This document shows positions 2,862 through 28,054 of a DNA stretch of 32,062 nucleotides, in pieces. Both the position numbers and the translations under genes were made by a program. The DNA comes from a virus: IMG/VR virus record IMGVR_UViG_3300038714_000176, positions 1 to 32,062 of that record. One strand, given 5' to 3'. Position 1 is the first letter of the stretch. The number at the start of each line of letters is the position of its first letter. The notes beneath the pieces were generated by a model that had not been told where the DNA came from, searched no databases, and worked only from the letters and a program-made list of their open reading frames with translations.

Positions 2862-4171
2862 CTTTGAATCCTCTTCATTTCGTTATTCCTCATAGGAAAC
2901 CTATTAGTTATAAAATACCTAAAAGCATCATTTCCGTGGTCATGGGTACCATCTTTTAATGGCTCTTCTTTTATTGGCTTCCCATCTTCACTTTCAGGGT
3001 ATCTGTATTCCTCAAAATCTTCTATTAATTCTGTACATTTTGTGTCTACATGAACTCTCCTTATTCCATCTGCACTTTCAAAAAAACCTCTTGCGTATGC
3101 TATACTAGCAACAAGATTTCTACTCATCCTATCTCTTGCTGATATAATTCTTATTCCACTACGTCTAAATATCTCCATATCTCCAGCACCACTCTGACCT
3201 TGAACATTACTACCAGCAGGGTCACCATAAAAAGACATGACAGGATAACCTTTGGTTTTAATCATCTTTATTAAATCTTCTGTTTTTATATTTTGTTTAT
3301 GCAGTATGGAGTCAAATACACGAATATGCTCTAGTTCTCCATCCCAATATGTTTGTAAAAACAAAACTGCTGGCATACGATAGCCAAAATCAATAGAGCA
3401 GTATGTAGGCAAGTTAGGATCGTATGGAAAGTCTCCAGTATCTAAGTCTCTGTTAAAATCCCAAACCTTACCCTCAAACACAGAAAATTCTGCTCCGAAC
3501 TCTTGTCCAAAAAGTTCTTTAGACATATTTCTTTTTCTTTCTATAATAGCAGGGTCATTTAATCCTAATGGAAACTCGTGTTCATTTACCCATGATGGAG
3601 ATGTATGACTTTCCCACATTGGATCATCTGCTCCTAGTTTAAACAAATCATATATCCAGTTTCTACCCTCTGGTGTTGTTATGAATATAACTTTACCTTT
3701 CCTACCTGCAACTGTTGGAGATAAATACATATCCCAAATTTTCTTATTCATCTTGGCAACCTCATCAATTACCAAGAGGTCTAAACCTTCACCAACAAGA
3801 CTTGATGGGTTATCTGCTGACATTCCTTCTACGATTGTACCCCATTTAAAACGAATGTACATATCTTTTTCTGATGCCTTGTCTACATCATCTGCATGAC
3901 CAACAACCATACGTTGCCAAATTTCACGAAATATCAACCTAGCTTTTTTGTATGACATCCCTACCACCCAAATTCTTTTGTTTGGCTGAGATGCTACATA
4001 AGTAGCTTCCATTGCACTTGCCCAAGTCTTACCAAATCTCCTACCACATACCACCACTTGAAATCTAGCATCTTGTTTTTTAGGGTAATGCAAAGGCATT
4101 TGACCACTATGAGGTTTATATCCTAAGTAGTCAAACCATTTTTTCTTAAATTCGTAATTTTTTTCTTGCAT
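2858..4171 (-). CDS. terL: Terminase large subunit
   Basis: The 437-residue packaging motor has both expected domains. ATPase: Walker A-like GRRFGKT (43-49), Walker B LLVIDE (132-137) with catalytic Glu137, and the coupling motif FITTPEGR (163-170). RNase H-like nuclease: acidic residues Asp261 (SIDFGYR), Asp317 (FYGDPAG) and Asp415 (HDHGNDAFRY). It translocates DNA into the prohead through the portal and cuts the concatemer. It is the first gene of the leftward unit; its promoter is likely the TGCTATAAT at about 4198-4190. All key residues appear present. The small subunit is encoded 2 kb away on the other strand. Confidence 0.95.
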   Translation of the reverse strand: MQEKNYEFKKKWFDYLGYKPHSGQMPLHYPKKQDARFQVVVCGRRFGKTWASAMEATYVASQPNKRIWVVGMSYKKARLIFREIWQRMVVGHADDVDKASEKDMYIRFKWGTIVEGMSADNPSSLVGEGLDLLVIDEVAKMNKKIWDMYLSPTVAGRKGKVIFITTPEGRNWIYDLFKLGADDPMWESHTSPSWVNEHEFPLGLNDPAIIERKRNMSKELFGQEFGAEFSVFEGKVWDFNRDLDTGDFPYDPNLPTYCSIDFGYRMPAVLFLQTYWDGELEHIRVFDSILHKQNIKTEDLIKMIKTKGYPVMSFYGDPAGSNVQGQSGAGDMEIFRRSGIRIISARDRMSRNLVASIAYARGFFESADGIRRVHVDTKCTELIEDFEEYRYPESEDGKPIKEEPLKDGTHDHGNDAFRYFITNRFPMRNNEMKRIQR

Positions 4172-4257
4172 TAGAATACTTAACTAACTTACATTATAGC
4201 ATATCTTTAATGCAAGGATAATTCTTGCATAATTCATAACTCACTAAAGAGGTAAAA
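4172..4257. promoter_or_regulatory. Divergent promoter/operator region between terL and scaffold genes
   Basis: This 86-bp region separates leftward terL from the rightward capsid unit. On the - strand an extended -10, TGCTATAAT, lies near 4198-4190 upstream of terL. The perfect inverted repeat ATGCAAG (4210-4216) / CTTGCAT (4224-4230), with a 7-base spacer, sits between the two starts and overlaps the - strand motif TTGCATTAAAGA (4215-4204). I see no clear -10 for the rightward genes. AGAGGT before 4258 is the ribosome binding site of the scaffold gene. The inverted repeat is a plausible operator coordinating both late units. Confidence 0.5.
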
Positions 4258-4761
4258 ATGTCTGAAGAAAAGACCATCGAGCCAGATGTAAAACAGGAAA
4301 ACGTCACACAAGGCGAAAACAATGTACCAATTTCAAGATTAAATGAAGTTATTTCAGAAAGAAATGAACTCCGTGAGATGCTTGAATCATTTAAAAGTAA
4401 AGAGGAAGAGGGTAAAAGAGCAAAACTTCAAGAAGAAGAAAAGTGGCAAGAACTAAATGCAGAGCTTGTTAAGCAACTTGAATCTTATAAACCCTATAAG
4501 GATAGATGGGATTCAATGGATAAAAAACTTCGTGAAGGTGCTTTAGCTCAACTTCCTGAATCAAAACGAGAAAAATTTTCTAATGTTGATACTGAAGTTC
4601 TTTTAAATATCGTTGAAGAGTTTACAGAAGCAGAAAAAGTAAACCCACCTGACACTAAAGGCACAATTCCTACCGATAGAATAGGAGATTGGACTGATAT
4701 GTCAAATGAAGAAAGAAGAAGAAACTGGGGTACAATATTAGAGTCATACATGAAAAGGTAA
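4258..4761 (+). CDS. Capsid scaffolding protein
   Basis: The 167-residue, strongly charged protein lies immediately upstream of the major capsid gene. It has a disordered acidic N-terminus, a long helical/coiled-coil stretch at about residues 28-95 (ISRLNEVISERNELREMLES and following), and a C-terminal part ending in a basic YMKR. This is the usual build and place of small scaffolds that direct assembly of HK97-fold proheads and are removed before DNA packaging. No protease gene is found nearby, so removal by exit rather than cleavage is an inference. The ribosome site AGAGGT precedes the ATG. Five bases separate it from the capsid gene. Confidence 0.75.
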   Translation: MSEEKTIEPDVKQENVTQGENNVPISRLNEVISERNELREMLESFKSKEEEGKRAKLQEEEKWQELNAELVKQLESYKPYKDRWDSMDKKLREGALAQLPESKREKFSNVDTEVLLNIVEEFTEAEKVNPPDTKGTIPTDRIGDWTDMSNEERRRNWGTILESYMKR

Positions 4762-4766
4762 TATAA

Positions 4767-5681
4767 ATGTCTAAACATTATCAAGGTTCAGCTAGTACAG
4801 TAGATGTAACAGATAGTACTGGAAGTGAACAATATTTTATTCCTCAGATTTGGTCTGATGGAATATATAAGTTTTTTGAACGTAAAACAGTATTCAGAGG
4901 ATTAGTTGATGACTACTCAGCATTAGTGCAGGGTAAAGGCTATGGTGATATAGTTCATATTCCAGAAATGGCTCTTATTTCAGCTAGTGCAAAAGGTGCA
5001 GGTGCTGATGTAAGTTATGATGCTACTGCAACAACTGAAACTCAGCTAGCTCTTAATAAACATAAATATGTCGCTAAACTTTTTGAAGATGTGGCTTTAA
5101 TTCAATCAGAAGCTGATTTAGTAGAAAAGTACGCTAGAATGATGGGTGAGGCTCTTGCTCGTCAGGTAGATGCTGATATATGGGCAGAGTTAGATGGTCT
5201 TAATCAGTCTCAAGCTTTATCTGCTGATGATACTTTAACAGCAGGTGTATTTGAATCTGCTCTAGCAACATTAGGTGAAAATGATGTACCTTACATGGAT
5301 GGAGAGTGTGCAATGGTTGTTAATCCAACTTTATTTGCAGACATTCTCAATCCTTCTGCTGGTATTGCTCAGTATTTCATCAGAAATGATGCTGTTGGAG
5401 AAGGAAATCGTGGTTTAAGGTCTGGAATGGTTGGCTCACTTTATGGAATTGATGTTTATATGTCAAACACAGTTTCTACAGGTGGTACAGCTAGTACAAT
5501 TCCGGGTGCTATATTCCATAAGTCAGCGTGTGCTTTTGCATCACAGCAGGAAGTTAGAGTTCAATCAGAGTATTCGATTGATGCTTTAGGAACTAAAGTA
5601 GTTTCTGACTTGCTTTATGGAGCAAAGTTGATTGATGATTCTGATAACATCAAAGGTGTAAAGTTTACTAACGTAAGCTAA
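4767..5681 (+). CDS. Major capsid protein (HK97 fold)
   Basis: The 304-residue protein follows the scaffold gene. It has the order expected of an HK97-fold coat of the P22/N4-like branch: an N-terminal arm (IPQIWSDGIYKFFERKTVFR), an E-loop region (KGYGDIVHIPEM, then repeated TTETQLALNKH), a spine helix containing SEADLVEKYARMMGEALARQ (about 118-140), and an A-domain-like C-terminus with MVVNPTLFADIL and GIDVYMSNTV. It forms the icosahedral shell. A strong hairpin directly follows the stop codon, probably to tune transcript level or stability relative to the next genes. Confidence 0.9.
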   Translation: MSKHYQGSASTVDVTDSTGSEQYFIPQIWSDGIYKFFERKTVFRGLVDDYSALVQGKGYGDIVHIPEMALISASAKGAGADVSYDATATTETQLALNKHKYVAKLFEDVALIQSEADLVEKYARMMGEALARQVDADIWAELDGLNQSQALSADDTLTAGVFESALATLGENDVPYMDGECAMVVNPTLFADILNPSAGIAQYFIRNDAVGEGNRGLRSGMVGSLYGIDVYMSNTVSTGGTASTIPGAIFHKSACAFASQQEVRVQSEYSIDALGTKVVSDLLYGAKLIDDSDNIKGVKFTNVS

Positions 5682-21596: not shown

Positions 21597-21953
21597 TTAA
21601 GATAATAAAGTTTTGGGATCAGGAATAACTATGTTTAAATCAACAGCAGACCATCTGATTAATCTCTCTATAAATACTGAAAACTCTTTTGTTGATAATG
21701 TTTTAGTGCTATCTACATTGAAATGATTTTTTATAGTAGCGTGCATTTCTTGTTCAGTATATCCCAGTTCCTCACCCAATATACCTACAATCTTCCAGTA
21801 ATAGTTATTTTGCTGAGCAGAGCGTACGCCAGTTTCTTTTAGTTCAATATAATATTCACCTTGTAACTTAGATATAGCGTTATCAAACTCTGCTCTATTT
21901 AGCAAAGACATCTTTCCATTTTTTATTGTACAAGCAAATCGCAGTCTGGACAT
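21597..21953 (-). CDS. NinB-like recombination protein
   Basis: The 118-residue protein shows the NinB/Orf family outline: N-terminal strands around FACTIKNGKMSLLNRAEF, then LQGEYYIELKETGVRSAQQN followed by NYYW (RSxxQNxYYW, 44-53), a helix (GILGEELGYTEQEMHATIKN) and STKEFSVFIERLIRWSA, with IPDP near the end. Lambda NinB binds single-stranded DNA and can replace RecFOR in recombination. It is the last gene of the leftward early unit and overlaps the zinc-ribbon gene by 31 bases. The internal Met15 is a less likely start because it would cut the first strand. Confidence 0.7.
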   Translation of the reverse strand: MSRLRFACTIKNGKMSLLNRAEFDNAISKLQGEYYIELKETGVRSAQQNNYYWKIVGILGEELGYTEQEMHATIKNHFNVDSTKTLSTKEFSVFIERLIRWSAVDLNIVIPDPKTLLS

Positions 21954-23236: not shown

Positions 23237-23599
23237 TTAAAAGTCAAATGTTTTTTGTTTAAGTTCCAAAGCTATCTCCTCATAGTCATCATCTGTAAAC
23301 TTAATCACAGTATTCTTTCTTTCTTTAACAGTCTCGTACCATTGGGTGCCACGCTTTTCAACTGCCCACTCCACAAACTCTGCAGGAGTTTTGTGAGCAG
23401 AGAAACTTGAGGAGAACACATGACACCCAACGCAGAGACAAAAACCATTATCAATATCCCAACGAACAGAACGTATGGATCGTGAGTAGAAATGATGTGC
23501 ATTTAGGGGTTTTGTCTTGTGACAATTTTCGCACATCCCATATTCTTTTATTTTGTCTGCCCATAACTTATCTAGTTTCTTTGATAATGATTTCTTCAC
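23237..23599 (-). CDS. HNH/NinG-like endonuclease
   Basis: The 120-residue protein has a treble-clef HNH layout: CENC (23-26), AHHFYSRS (34-41) with the catalytic-type His pair, DIDNGFCLCVGCH (48-60) with Asn51 and the second Cys pair, then SAHKTPAEFVEWAV (67-80). The C-terminal extension resembles lambda NinG (Rap), a structure-specific nuclease acting on recombination intermediates. It lies near the NinB-like and SSB-like genes. The start is a GTG with no visible Shine-Dalgarno, 7 bases after the previous stop, so efficiency may depend on coupling. Confidence 0.7.
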   Translation of the reverse strand: MKKSLSKKLDKLWADKIKEYGMCENCHKTKPLNAHHFYSRSIRSVRWDIDNGFCLCVGCHVFSSSFSAHKTPAEFVEWAVEKRGTQWYETVKERKNTVIKFTDDDYEEIALELKQKTFDF

Positions 23600-24548: not shown

Positions 24549-25313
24549 CTAACCTTTAATTAATTCACCCCAAAGAGATGTCTTACCATTGACTATCTGC
24601 ACTAGGTGAACTGTAAAGAATCCTGAGTGATAAAAATCAACAATAGCAAAAGCGTGTTGCCAGTTATGTTGCCTATTGCCTAACCATTCATTGGACTCTG
24701 CACTCATATCTTTTAGGCACCCTATTGACCAAGCTGACTTGACCCCATCAATATGGGTAACGGAAGATTGTTGTATGTCGTGATGATGTCCATACATAAC
24801 ATTACCACCAAGACGAAGGAGGTGGTTACGAGTATGATTAATACCAGCGAAATGATGTCCATGATAAAAGTTGAGTTTACCAATTTTAAGCATCTTACCC
24901 AATGGGTGGTATTTATAACCACGCAATCCCAATTTAATAGCATTTTTAACCAAAAAATCCTTAGCAAGGTAGGGATTTTCTTCAACAAATCTATTAAGCC
25001 AATCTTCATGGTTACCTTCAACAAAATGCCTCTCTTTTACGTTTGCTTTATCAAGTGACTCATCAATTATATCCATTCCTTTATTTACTTCTTCTATCTC
25101 TTTTGTAACAAATGGTAATTGATATTCTAGTGGTGGTCTTTTCTTTTTCTTCCATTGCCAATGTGATACTGACTCCCATTCTCCAGTATCTCCAAGATCA
25201 ATATAACCATCAGGCTGTATGATCTCAATAGCCTGACAAACAACGCTTATAGCTTTCATATCAGCCATAGGAAAATGTTTATCAGGAGTTACAATATATC
25301 TTTTAACTTTCAT
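24549..25313 (-). CDS. Calcineurin-like metallophosphoesterase
   Basis: The 254-residue enzyme shows the di-metal phosphoesterase motifs in order: DKH (11-13, DxH), GDTGEW (41-46, GDxxE), GNHED (100-104), HGHH (151-154) and GHHHD (175-179). All ligands expected for the two metals are there. Family members hydrolyse phosphomono- or diesters, from nucleotides and nucleic acids to proteins; the substrate here is unknown. In phage replication units such enzymes are thought to trim DNA ends or nucleotides. The ATG overlaps the previous stop (ATGA) after GGAGGAATT. Confidence 0.8.
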   Translation of the reverse strand: MKVKRYIVTPDKHFPMADMKAISVVCQAIEIIQPDGYIDLGDTGEWESVSHWQWKKKKRPPLEYQLPFVTKEIEEVNKGMDIIDESLDKANVKERHFVEGNHEDWLNRFVEENPYLAKDFLVKNAIKLGLRGYKYHPLGKMLKIGKLNFYHGHHFAGINHTRNHLLRLGGNVMYGHHHDIQQSSVTHIDGVKSAWSIGCLKDMSAESNEWLGNRQHNWQHAFAIVDFYHSGFFTVHLVQIVNGKTSLWGELIKG

Positions 25314-25534
25314 AATTCCTCCGATCTAAGCCACTTGTCTAATGCTTTATCCCATTGTTGATAGTTAGCTTGATTATTATTATATTTAACCCATATTCGG
25401 TCAAATTCTTCCCAATTTCTTTTTCTTAGGTGTCTCAATCCACGATCCATACTTTGATTATTAACTCGATCATCATCAATCTCTTGCAACCTATTTAAAA
25501 AGATCTTCTTTAAATTCTTCGATGTATTCCTCAT
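25310..25534 (-). CDS. Hypothetical protein, 74 aa, basic helical
   Basis: Arg/Trp-rich small protein: MDRGLRHLRKRNWEEFDRIW in the middle, then YQQWDKALDKWLRSEEL. From the ATG at 25534 it overlaps the primase-helicase gene by 44 bases; a start at the internal Met28 would avoid this but has no clear ribosome site. The C-terminal overlap with the phosphoesterase (ATGA) supports it as real. Function unknown. Confidence 0.5.
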   Translation of the reverse strand: MRNTSKNLKKIFLNRLQEIDDDRVNNQSMDRGLRHLRKRNWEEFDRIWVKYNNNQANYQQWDKALDKWLRSEEL

Positions 25535-27167
25535 ATATTCCCCTTCTTACGTCATATTTTAATTTAGCAGGTTCATTGTTTGTAGGTTTACCATTTTTAT
25601 ACTGAAACCTAATTTTCTGAACATGGATACCTGCATAATCCTCGCTCTCACTTCTATGCCGATGTACAGTTATTGCATTATCTGCTTTATTATACCAGTT
25701 AGCTGATCCTGCAATATCGTATGGTGTTGGTACTACTGGTTTACGATCAAGTCCATTTTCCATTTTTCTTGGATGTGCTACAACCCAAATATGCATCTCA
25801 TTCATCTTTGCAAATGCACTTAATTGGGCAAGTACTCTTGATACATATAAAGTCTCATTCTCACCATCATTAAACTTATGCTCCAATGTATTCCACGGAT
25901 CAATTACTAATCCCTGCAATCCATATCTGTAGTTTAATACCTTAGCCTGATCCATAATATCTTCTATTGTTACAGAATCTTCCTGAGTTCCTATAAATTT
26001 AATATGATCATTTAATAAACCCATAGTATTCCTAGCTGTTTTTTCATCCATCCTATCATCACCCCAAAAAGGTTGGGCAACAAACTTACCAACTAATTTA
26101 AGCAAGTGGTGTTTAACTGGAAAATTCTCTGCTGAAAATATACCAAAGTTCCATCCATGTAATTTAATCATATTAATCATTACTGCATCCATCCATTCAG
26201 ACTTCCCCATATTTGGAACACCAGTCACAACTGTCAGTTCACTAGGACTAACCAAGTAATGCTGATCTACTGCTGACCAACCAGTAGATAAACCTTTAGC
26301 ATCAGGAGTCAATAATAAATCAATAGCATCATCCTCAACATCCTGAACCATAACAACCCCATCAATGGGATAAGGATGGGCATTGCTTACAATTTCTTCA
26401 ACCTTTTCTTTGCCGTAATTCATAAGGACATCATTCATATCCTTACATCCTTCAGGATATGCCACTCTAAAGCATTTTTCCCTACCTATACGCCTAGATA
26501 ATTCATCTCTTAGGTGTTTACCTGCTCCATCAGAATCAGTACATAATATGACAGTTTCAGCGTTCATCAAATGTTCTTCTGCTGATAATAAATAACTAAA
26601 CTTTCTGTCACTTGGTTTTGTACCCTGAGCAGGTGCCCCATCAGGAACAGATACTGCATTTATAAATCCACATTCCACAAGAGATAAGGCATCCATCTCA
26701 CCTTCAGTTATAATAATGGTTTCCATCCCTTTCATGTTATCAAATCTATAAAAACATTTCTCAGCATTTTTAGATTGCCTAAATCTTTTATCTCCAGTCC
26801 TTGACTTGATATTGACCACTTCCCCATCTTTATAAAATGGAAAGTGTATCCATCTGTTATCGTATCCTATTTTCTCTCTATCAATAGTTTCTTGTGATAT
26901 ACCTCGATCCTCAAACCATTGATATACATTATCAGGAATACTTGTTTTAGGTGGCTTTGGTTTTTCTATTACCTGCTCAATCATTTGTTTATTCTTTTTC
27001 AATGTGCCTTTCCATCCACAATGGTGACAATTCCAAACACCATCATCAATATTAACTGATAGGCAAGTATCAAATGATTTCTTTCTTGTTGGTGAACATT
27101 TTGGGCATTTTGTTTTTTCTTGTCCATGTGATCCTTTTATGTAAATGCCATTCTCCTCAAATGTCAT
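25491..27167 (-). CDS. Primase-helicase (T7 gp4-like)
   Basis: The 558-residue replicative protein begins with a Cys4 zinc domain (CPKC at 21-24; CHHCGW near 48-53). A TOPRIM primase core follows, with ITEGEMDAL (about 152-160) and CTDSDGAGKHL (about 210-220). The C-terminal half is a RecA-like helicase: Walker A GVPNMGKS (about 316-323), Walker B LVIDPWNTLEH, the sensor-like WVVAHPRKMEN, and the final AGSANWYNKADNAITVHRHR. It unwinds DNA and makes primers at the fork. All core motifs are intact. AAGAGGAGAT precedes the ATG. It is the central enzyme of the early unit and acts with the initiator encoded just upstream. Confidence 0.92.
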   Translation of the reverse strand: MTFEENGIYIKGSHGQEKTKCPKCSPTRKKSFDTCLSVNIDDGVWNCHHCGWKGTLKKNKQMIEQVIEKPKPPKTSIPDNVYQWFEDRGISQETIDREKIGYDNRWIHFPFYKDGEVVNIKSRTGDKRFRQSKNAEKCFYRFDNMKGMETIIITEGEMDALSLVECGFINAVSVPDGAPAQGTKPSDRKFSYLLSAEEHLMNAETVILCTDSDGAGKHLRDELSRRIGREKCFRVAYPEGCKDMNDVLMNYGKEKVEEIVSNAHPYPIDGVVMVQDVEDDAIDLLLTPDAKGLSTGWSAVDQHYLVSPSELTVVTGVPNMGKSEWMDAVMINMIKLHGWNFGIFSAENFPVKHHLLKLVGKFVAQPFWGDDRMDEKTARNTMGLLNDHIKFIGTQEDSVTIEDIMDQAKVLNYRYGLQGLVIDPWNTLEHKFNDGENETLYVSRVLAQLSAFAKMNEMHIWVVAHPRKMENGLDRKPVVPTPYDIAGSANWYNKADNAITVHRHRSESEDYAGIHVQKIRFQYKNGKPTNNEPAKLKYDVRRGIYEEYIEEFKEDLFK

Positions 27168-27178
27168 TTTATCTCCTC

Positions 27179-27970
27179 TTATTGATTAAATTTATGATAT
27201 ATGTTTTGAAATTTAGTAAATCCATTTTCAGATTGAGTTCTTAACGTAGCTAGTGTAAGTAGATTCTTTCCCCAAAATTCATCATCTATTGCATAGTTAA
27301 GAGTATTCTTTATATCTTCAAAATCATATTTGTCTTCAGTTATAAGATTGTAAATACAATTAATACTTTCATTTATAAAACTCATGTCTTGCTCCCAAGC
27401 TTTACGAAACATCTTTGGGTATCGTAAACTCTGTTTATTGTAAATAGTATAGACCAACTTTCTAAGAACATTTAATTGTTTATCATTGATTTCTTTTTTT
27501 AGTGGTATATGGGGTTTATTGCCATCACTATATATAGTATTAGTAGTATTATTATGTAATAATAATGATCGGCTCTTATCAGTATAGGTAGGCATCCCTA
27601 ACCCCTCTAAAACATCATCTTTTACACCTTCCCCTAGTGATTTTCCCCTATAGGGGTTACTAATCATTGTTCCTACCCCTAGTAAATTTTGACTAGGGGT
27701 AATGTATCTCTTGAGAAACTTTTTTGTTTTTTCATCATGCTCAATTACCACTTTTATAAAGCCAAATTTCTTTAAATCATTTATACTTTTTGATGCTGTA
27801 TCTTTACTTATACTTAAAACTTTGCTAAAATAAATATTTCTTTTTGTGCATATACCATTATCATCTAAACAAGCCATAATCTCTGAATAAATAATTTTAG
27901 TATTGGGTTTTAATTCTTTGTGATGCCTTATATATTTAGGCAATACCCCATAAAAACTTCCAGTATCCAT
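27179..27970 (-). CDS. Replication initiator (O-like, HTH) containing the probable origin
   Basis: The 263-residue protein has an N-terminal winged HTH (about 20-75: LKPNTKIIYSEIMACLDDNG, then ISKDTASKSINDLKKFGFIK), as in lambda O and phage HTH_36-type initiators. A low-complexity linker (about 90-150) follows, then a C-terminal helical domain (KNTLNYAIDDEFWGKNLLTL) resembling the part that recruits helicase. The DNA encoding the linker contains palindromic CCCCTA repeats and an AT-rich run, so the gene probably carries its own origin, as in lambda. AAAAGGAGATC precedes the ATG; a GC-rich hairpin lies in its leader. Confidence 0.75.
   Translation of the reverse strand: MDTGSFYGVLPKYIRHHKELKPNTKIIYSEIMACLDDNGICTKRNIYFSKVLSISKDTASKSINDLKKFGFIKVVIEHDEKTKKFLKRYITPSQNLLGVGTMISNPYRGKSLGEGVKDDVLEGLGMPTYTDKSRSLLLHNNTTNTIYSDGNKPHIPLKKEINDKQLNVLRKLVYTIYNKQSLRYPKMFRKAWEQDMSFINESINCIYNLITEDKYDFEDIKNTLNYAIDDEFWGKNLLTLATLRTQSENGFTKFQNIYHKFNQ
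27527..27701. other. Probable replication origin inside the initiator gene
   Basis: Repeats built on CCCCTA: a perfect 10-bp inverted repeat TACCCCTAGT (27674-27683) / ACTAGGGGTA (27692-27701) around AAATTTTG, the perfect palindrome CCCCTATAGGGG (27645-27656), a half site CCCCTAGTGA (27631-27640), and weaker CCCTA/CCCCT at 27596-27606. Next to them on the downstream side of the gene is a nearly pure A/T stretch (27527-27569). Palindromic iterons followed by an AT-rich unwinding zone, within an initiator gene and over the linker codons, is the lambda ori layout. Confidence 0.65.
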
Positions 27971-27991
27971 TTGATCTCCTTTTATAAAGAC

Positions 27992-28020
27992 CGAGCAGGG
28001 GAAACATGAAAACCTGCTCG
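27992..28020 (-). terminator. GC-rich hairpin in the leader of the initiator gene
   Basis: CGAGCAGG (27992-27999) pairs with CCTGCTCG (28013-28020), 13-base loop. On the - strand it is followed by GTCTTTATAAAA, a weak T-tract. It may be a leaky terminator after the Cys-rich gene or a regulatory 5' structure; the neighbouring CTCGG (28023-28027) allows an alternative pairing with CCGAG (27991-27995). Confidence 0.45.
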
Positions 28021-28054
28021 ATCTCGGACTATAACACCCCTTTAACTTAACTAA

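Follow-up and report, generated by a model that had tools for sequence, protein, structure and literature searches.

The stretch of viral DNA analysed here (IMG/VR record IMGVR_UViG_3300038714_000176, positions 1 to 32,062; hereafter the window) carries genes for a terminase and a major head protein, and it is therefore a phage record rather than a plasmid replicon. Its minus strand encodes a replication initiator, and a gene for a T7-type primase-helicase begins 11 nt downstream. The codons for the linker of the initiator contain a pair of long inverted repeats, with an AT-rich tract beside them. The features of the locus, in the order in which the initiator gene is read, are as follows.

27179-27970, minus strand: replication initiator gene, 263 aa, with an HTH_36 N-domain, a disordered linker and an O/DnaD-like helical C-domain
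27695-27937, minus strand: codons for the winged-helix DNA-binding domain (residues 12-92), from the AlphaFold2 model
27673-27702, no strand assigned: iteron unit 1, a 30-bp inverted repeat (TTACCCCTAGTCAAAATTTACTAGGGGTAG on the minus strand), from the paired-repeat score and concerted change with unit 2
27628-27659, no strand assigned: iteron unit 2, a 32-bp inverted repeat (TAACCCCTATAGGGGAAAATCACTAGGGGAAG on the minus strand) that holds a 12-bp palindrome, from the paired-repeat analysis
27600-27617, no strand assigned: possible third half-site, degenerate and weak (AACCCCTCTAAAACATCA), from the listing of sites
27527-27569, no strand assigned: AT-rich tract, still coding, proposed as a DNA-unwinding element, from its melting rank and depressed GC3
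27182-27493, minus strand: codons for the C-terminal helical domain (about residues 160-263), from PHROG_391, PHROG_2357 (relative L060) and BLASTP to lambda O
25491-27167, minus strand: T7-type primase-helicase gene, 558 aa, from Pfam Toprim and DnaB_C and from PHROG_239

The domain architecture of the initiator was established from profile matches and from an AlphaFold2 model built from 23 sequences. Residues 19-72 match HTH_36 (PF13730; E=5e-9, 36.3 bits against a cut-off of 25), and the N-terminal part also matches "replication initiation protein" families in PHROGs. HTH_36 is the sole Pfam match, so that neither Phage_rep_O (PF04492, which the lambda O control hits at E=6e-36) nor RepA_N (PF06970) was found; NCBIfam gave nothing above cut-off, and a sequence search of the PDB returned no useful relative. 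In the model residues 12-92 form a winged helix, residues 96-141 are of low confidence, and residues 163-262 make up a helical C-domain. Among initiators, the top fold matches of the modelled N-domain are the RepA_N N-domains 4pql and 4pt7 (Z about 9 over 84-91 residues), but general winged-helix proteins score equally well, so the match shows the fold only. Residues 210-248 match PHROG_391, "replication initiation O-like" (E=6.5e-7), which lambda O itself matches at 2.7e-39; PHROG_2357, the family of the lambda O C-terminus, is matched by the initiator of L060 as well as by lambda O, and BLASTP of the window initiator against lambda O gives E=7e-4, a value valid for a single comparison. On these matches the C-domain is taken to be related to the C-terminus of lambda O. 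The original prediction, that iterons and an AT-rich tract lie in the linker codons of an O-like initiator, is thus borne out by the gene at 27970-27179, the structural model and the PHROG_391 match.

In the 5' leader of the initiator gene, a strong hairpin (27988-28024; minus strand GAGATCGAGCAGG...CCTGCTCGGTCTTT) immediately precedes the Shine-Dalgarno site. Several relatives (L005, L010, L012, L013, L030 and L044) have a stable hairpin at the matching leader position, with a different sequence in most of them, which suggests a conserved element of translation control or RNA processing. A scan for promoters and terminators gave nothing above shuffled sequences.

The repeats were originally described as short CCCCTA-based iterons at 27631-27701. 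The word CCCCTA/TAGGGG occurs nine times in the 32 kb, near the expected number, and five of the nine occurrences do cluster there, whereas no 71-bp stretch in any of 200 Markov-simulated genomes holds more than two. The true units, however, are not the short words but the two inverted repeats of 30-32 bp, of which the words are fragments and which stand about 44 bp apart from start to start (43 bp on the coding strand). The long perfect inverted repeat TACCCCTAGT/ACTAGGGGTA was found as predicted, at 27674-27701; the window has three perfect inverted repeats with arms of at least 10 and a spacer of at most 20, and this one alone is G+C-rich. The predicted 12-bp palindrome CCCCTATAGGGG is likewise present, but as part of unit 2, and it was rejected as an iteron of its own. 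The paired-repeat score of the window linker is 50, against 36.9 +/- 2.0 (maximum 44) for 1000 codon-resampled versions that encode an unchanged protein and pass through the same optimisation, none of which scored as high, in a test that was devised after the relatives had been seen. The same score is the highest among 1329 stretches of the window (mean 37.8). A cruder count of 12-mer word pairs over the whole gene was not significant (13 of 100 codon shuffles scored as high), and it was dropped in favour of the structured test. A search for a further cluster of such repeats elsewhere in the window gave none.

Relatives were gathered through the primase-helicase, which yielded 80 IMG/VR loci. 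A gene of about 260 codons stands in the place of the initiator at 69 of these, the window included; 60 of the genes are distinct, and three of these have an unrelated N-domain. The lambda-like plan that had been proposed for the window is borne out by it and by some 60 distinct relatives, with a winged-helix N-domain, iterons in the linker codons, an AT-rich tract on their 3' side and a C-terminal interaction domain, but the N-domain is HTH_36 instead of Phage_rep_O. The relatives recovered by a scan of bacterial genomes were all distant.

Statistics on the repeats were based on 38 dereplicated genes, and they argue for constraint on the DNA itself. With the protein fixed, the linkers contain ACCCC/GGGGT 107 times against 18.8 +/- 3.9 expected, and TACCCCTA/TAGGGGTA 35 times against 1.1 +/- 1.0; the words lie on both strands and in more than one reading frame. 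The units of the relatives are again paired inverted repeats, of 24-32 bp. Such pairs are matched by at most 5 of 100 resamplings in 24 of the 38 genes, with a pitch of 42-46 bp in all 24, while in the other 14 the paired-repeat statistic alone is not significant. When a 36-nt block is compared with the block 45 nt further on, without any selection of sites, the identity is 20.7 of 36; resampling of the codons lowers it to 17.5, blocks from different genes share 14.4, and other shifts give about 8-12. The excess over both the resampled and the between-gene values indicates that, within a genome, the DNA of the two units undergoes concerted evolution. The original prediction had named loss of the iterons from close relatives as a finding that would count against it; in fact they persist, change together and exceed what the protein requires.

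The tract at 27527-27569 had been described as consisting of A and T only. This is incorrect, since 37 of its 43 bases are A or T (86% A+T), yet no other 40-bp stretch of the window melts as easily as the one that begins at 27529 within it (rank 1 of 32,022 by nearest-neighbour energy). At longer spans the tract falls within the top 0.56% (60 bp) and 8.5% (100 bp). Judged by composition and stability, it corresponds to the unwinding tract that the lambda plan places on the 3' side of the iterons. The corresponding tracts of the 38 relatives contain 43 codons that end in G or C, compared with 119 +/- 9 expected from the codon usage of the same genes, and many of them contain ACATTATTATATAATAATAATAT..TATATA.

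Comparisons between relatives point to exchange of the N-domain and the repeats as a unit. The C-domains of L075 and L047 (initiator gene at L047 1302-2099) are 77% identical, while their N-domains are unrelated and so are their linker repeats (TTTGTCAAA..GACAAA in L075 and GGTTATCAAAATGATAA in L047). In L055 the units read CCACT...AGTGG and are still 45 bp apart. In L122 a block-by-block comparison of the DNA gives 73-92% identity to L050/L080 over the N-domain, repeats and AT-rich tract, and 97-100% identity to L119 over the C-domain region, from just past the tract. Judged by these identities L122 is a natural hybrid of two lineages, and its comparison with L119/L045 on the one side and L050/L080 on the other reveals the exchange of an N-domain plus putative origin on a conserved C-domain. 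Across the relatives, the similarity of iterons between units follows N-domain identity when the C-domain is controlled for (partial r=0.53, reached in none of 2000 permutations), but the N-domain and the repeats are physically linked, and common ancestry therefore accounts for part of this correlation. The stronger argument comes from the way in which both units change together. The relatives appear to exchange the predicted binding domain jointly with the predicted start site, as a single cassette.

The predicted identity of the neighbour as a T7-type primase-helicase was upheld. The downstream protein belongs to PHROG_239 (E=4e-92), the same family as T7 gp4, and joins a Toprim primase to a RecA-type helicase domain (DnaB_C) within one chain; in most relatives its gene closely follows that of the initiator. 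Helicase identity correlates with both the N-domain and the C-domain in Mantel tests, and so gives no evidence for a specific contact between C-domain and helicase. The window record and 11 relatives of 34-38 kb, any of which may be incomplete, contain no match to a lambda-P (PF06992) or DnaC/IstB loader (the E. coli positive control for PF06992 was detected) and no family A or B polymerase. Further downstream lies a metallo-phosphoesterase gene (PHROG_221, 24549-25313), in an order shared with the relative L002. The strand block of replication genes also includes genes for a NinB/Orf-like recombination mediator and a NinG/Rap-like HNH endonuclease (21597-21953 and 23237-23599), as in lambdoid nin regions.

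Based on these data, the region 27527-27702 is very probably a theta-type origin situated within its own initiator gene, used through binding, opening and recruitment of the primase-helicase in turn. The winged-helix N-domain would bind the two long inverted repeats, and the resulting nucleoprotein complex would then open the adjoining AT-rich tract. The O/DnaD-like C-domain could place the T7-type primase-helicase of the adjacent gene on the opened strand with no loader, after which a polymerase, probably that of the host, would continue. GC skew, among the checks originally suggested, shows no switch at the site; its sign changes near 4.2 kb and near 21.5 kb, in step with reversals of gene direction. 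The skew therefore reflects transcription, not replication, and is uninformative on the origin. A bolder and more general form of the model sees a loader-free mode of initiation, in which winged helix, repeats and unwinding tract form an exchangeable cassette, joined in frame with an O/DnaD-like C-domain. This C-domain would recruit a T7-type primase-helicase directly to a defined origin of double-stranded DNA, and natural recombination would transfer origin specificity from one phage to another. This form is tentative, and we rate its chances at somewhat below even.

The recruitment step is where the main competing interpretation lies. The origin may be correctly placed while loading relies on the DnaB/DnaC of the host or on a phage loader that escaped recognition, and the T7-type protein acts only later, as the primase-helicase of the fork; this is a variant of the preferred explanation, not exclusive of it, and we consider it unlikely, if still deserving serious weight. 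A loader is required in lambda and SPP1 (PMC8965321), the module is flanked by small uncharacterised genes in a record that is possibly incomplete, and profiles can miss divergent loaders (the search for the SPP1 gp39 family, run without a positive control, is uninformative). Against these points, the primase-helicase stands closely behind the initiator in most relatives, and the 12 records searched gave no DnaC/IstB or lambda P match. T7 gp4 is not known to need a dedicated loader.

A different function for the repeats is considerably less probable. They might be operators through which the initiator autoregulates the replication operon, with replication starting elsewhere or by transcription or recombination, and the same site anatomy would indeed give initiator-binding sites under either function. 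The sites, however, lie away from the promoter, about 270-340 nt into the gene, and they adjoin the most meltable tract of the window, which is under a synonymous constraint of its own that an operator would not need. The layout also equals that of the proven origins of lambda and SPP1 (PMC7466680, PMC6316719). Finally, the idea that the repeats merely mirror a repetitive linker peptide and AT-rich codon bias, as protein-level repeats or by chance, draws on the obvious peptide repeats of some relatives (QGGGN..QGGV), the equivalence of a 45-nt pitch to 15 codons and the part of the similarity that codon-resampled genes retain (17.5 of 36), but it can be dismissed almost entirely, because resampling keeps the peptide and yet falls far short of the real values, the words occur on both strands and in more than one frame, and the linker peptide of the window is not itself repetitive.

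The best reading of the region is thus an origin that would work in the manner known from lambda, SPP1 and the pSK41/pPR9 plasmids and that has a T7-type primase-helicase as its partner, with no recognised loader. It would supply a sharply testable pair of origin and initiator for a large group of uncultivated phages, and the natural hybrids indicate that origin specificity may move as one in-frame cassette. It also raises the question of how a T7-type primase-helicase reaches a defined origin without a recognised lambda-P or DnaC-type loader. The roughly 60 distinct pairs of initiator and iteron could reveal how a winged helix reads its repeat.

Origins inside the initiator gene are established for lambda and Stx phages (PMC7466680), for SPP1 gp38/oriL (PMC6316719), for TP901-1 and Tuc2009 (PMC8965321) and for pSK41 (PMC5703833). 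The window resembles lambda O and ori-lambda in having the putative origin in the initiator gene, iterons in the linker codons with an AT-rich tract beside them, an HTH-type N-domain and a related C-domain (PHROG_391/2357). The lambda N-domain is Phage_rep_O, however, and that of the window phage HTH_36; lambda has four ATCCC..GGGAT iterons of 18-20 bp at 20-24 bp, compared with units of 30-32 bp with ACCCC...GGGGT arms at a pitch of about 44 bp in the window; and a T7-type primase-helicase is found where lambda has the P loader. In SPP1, too, the initiator gp38 binds repeats in its own gene beside an AT-rich unwinding element, with the helicase gene downstream (PMC6316719), but the repeats are direct, the loader gp39 is separate and the helicase gp40 is a DnaB-type enzyme that uses host primase, whereas the window combines inverted repeats with a T7-type enzyme. 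SPP1 also has a second origin, oriR, while the window yielded no second repeat cluster.

The plasmids pSK41 and pPR9 share with the window an HTH N-domain, an origin (putative in the window) in the central linker of rep and a DnaD-like C-domain, although they depend on host DnaG and helicase while the window phage has its own T7-type primase-helicase (PMC5703833). The N-domain of pPR9 is of the same PF13730 family as that of the window initiator; the likeness of the modelled N-domain to RepA_N structures is suggestive only, given the lack of a RepA_N Pfam match. In pPR9 a PF13730 N-domain and its origin have replaced the RepA_N ones on a conserved C-domain, which makes it the closest published parallel to the cassette exchange seen in L122 (PMC5703833).

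The likeness to T7 is confined to gp4, with its PHROG_239 assignment and its Toprim and DnaB_C/RecA-type helicase domains; in the window this enzyme stands behind an initiator predicted to bind the origin. T7 is not known to have an initiator of this type. No paper describing the pairing of such an initiator with a T7-type primase-helicase as an origin system was found in the part of the literature covered. Two Achromobacter genomes carry a relative of the window primase-helicase, and in the one examined (L157, an apparent prophage) a Phage_rep_O gene (3895-4998) with 45-nt internal repeats at a 48-49-nt spacing lies directly upstream, apparently the same plan with a true lambda-O N-domain. 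In phage PJN03 and an Alloprevotella MAG, the gene upstream of the primase-helicase belongs to a family with a DUF6291 N-terminus and also contains internal repeats; the DUF6291-type genes L165 1755-2426 and L163 4086-4931 have in-frame tandem repeats of 39 nt and 21 nt, respectively. The repeats of these genes and their position immediately before the primase-helicase gene raise the possibility that DUF6291 serves as the N-domain of an initiator whose gene contains the origin. The pairing of an initiator-like gene with a relative of the window primase-helicase is not confined to the group of the window phage.
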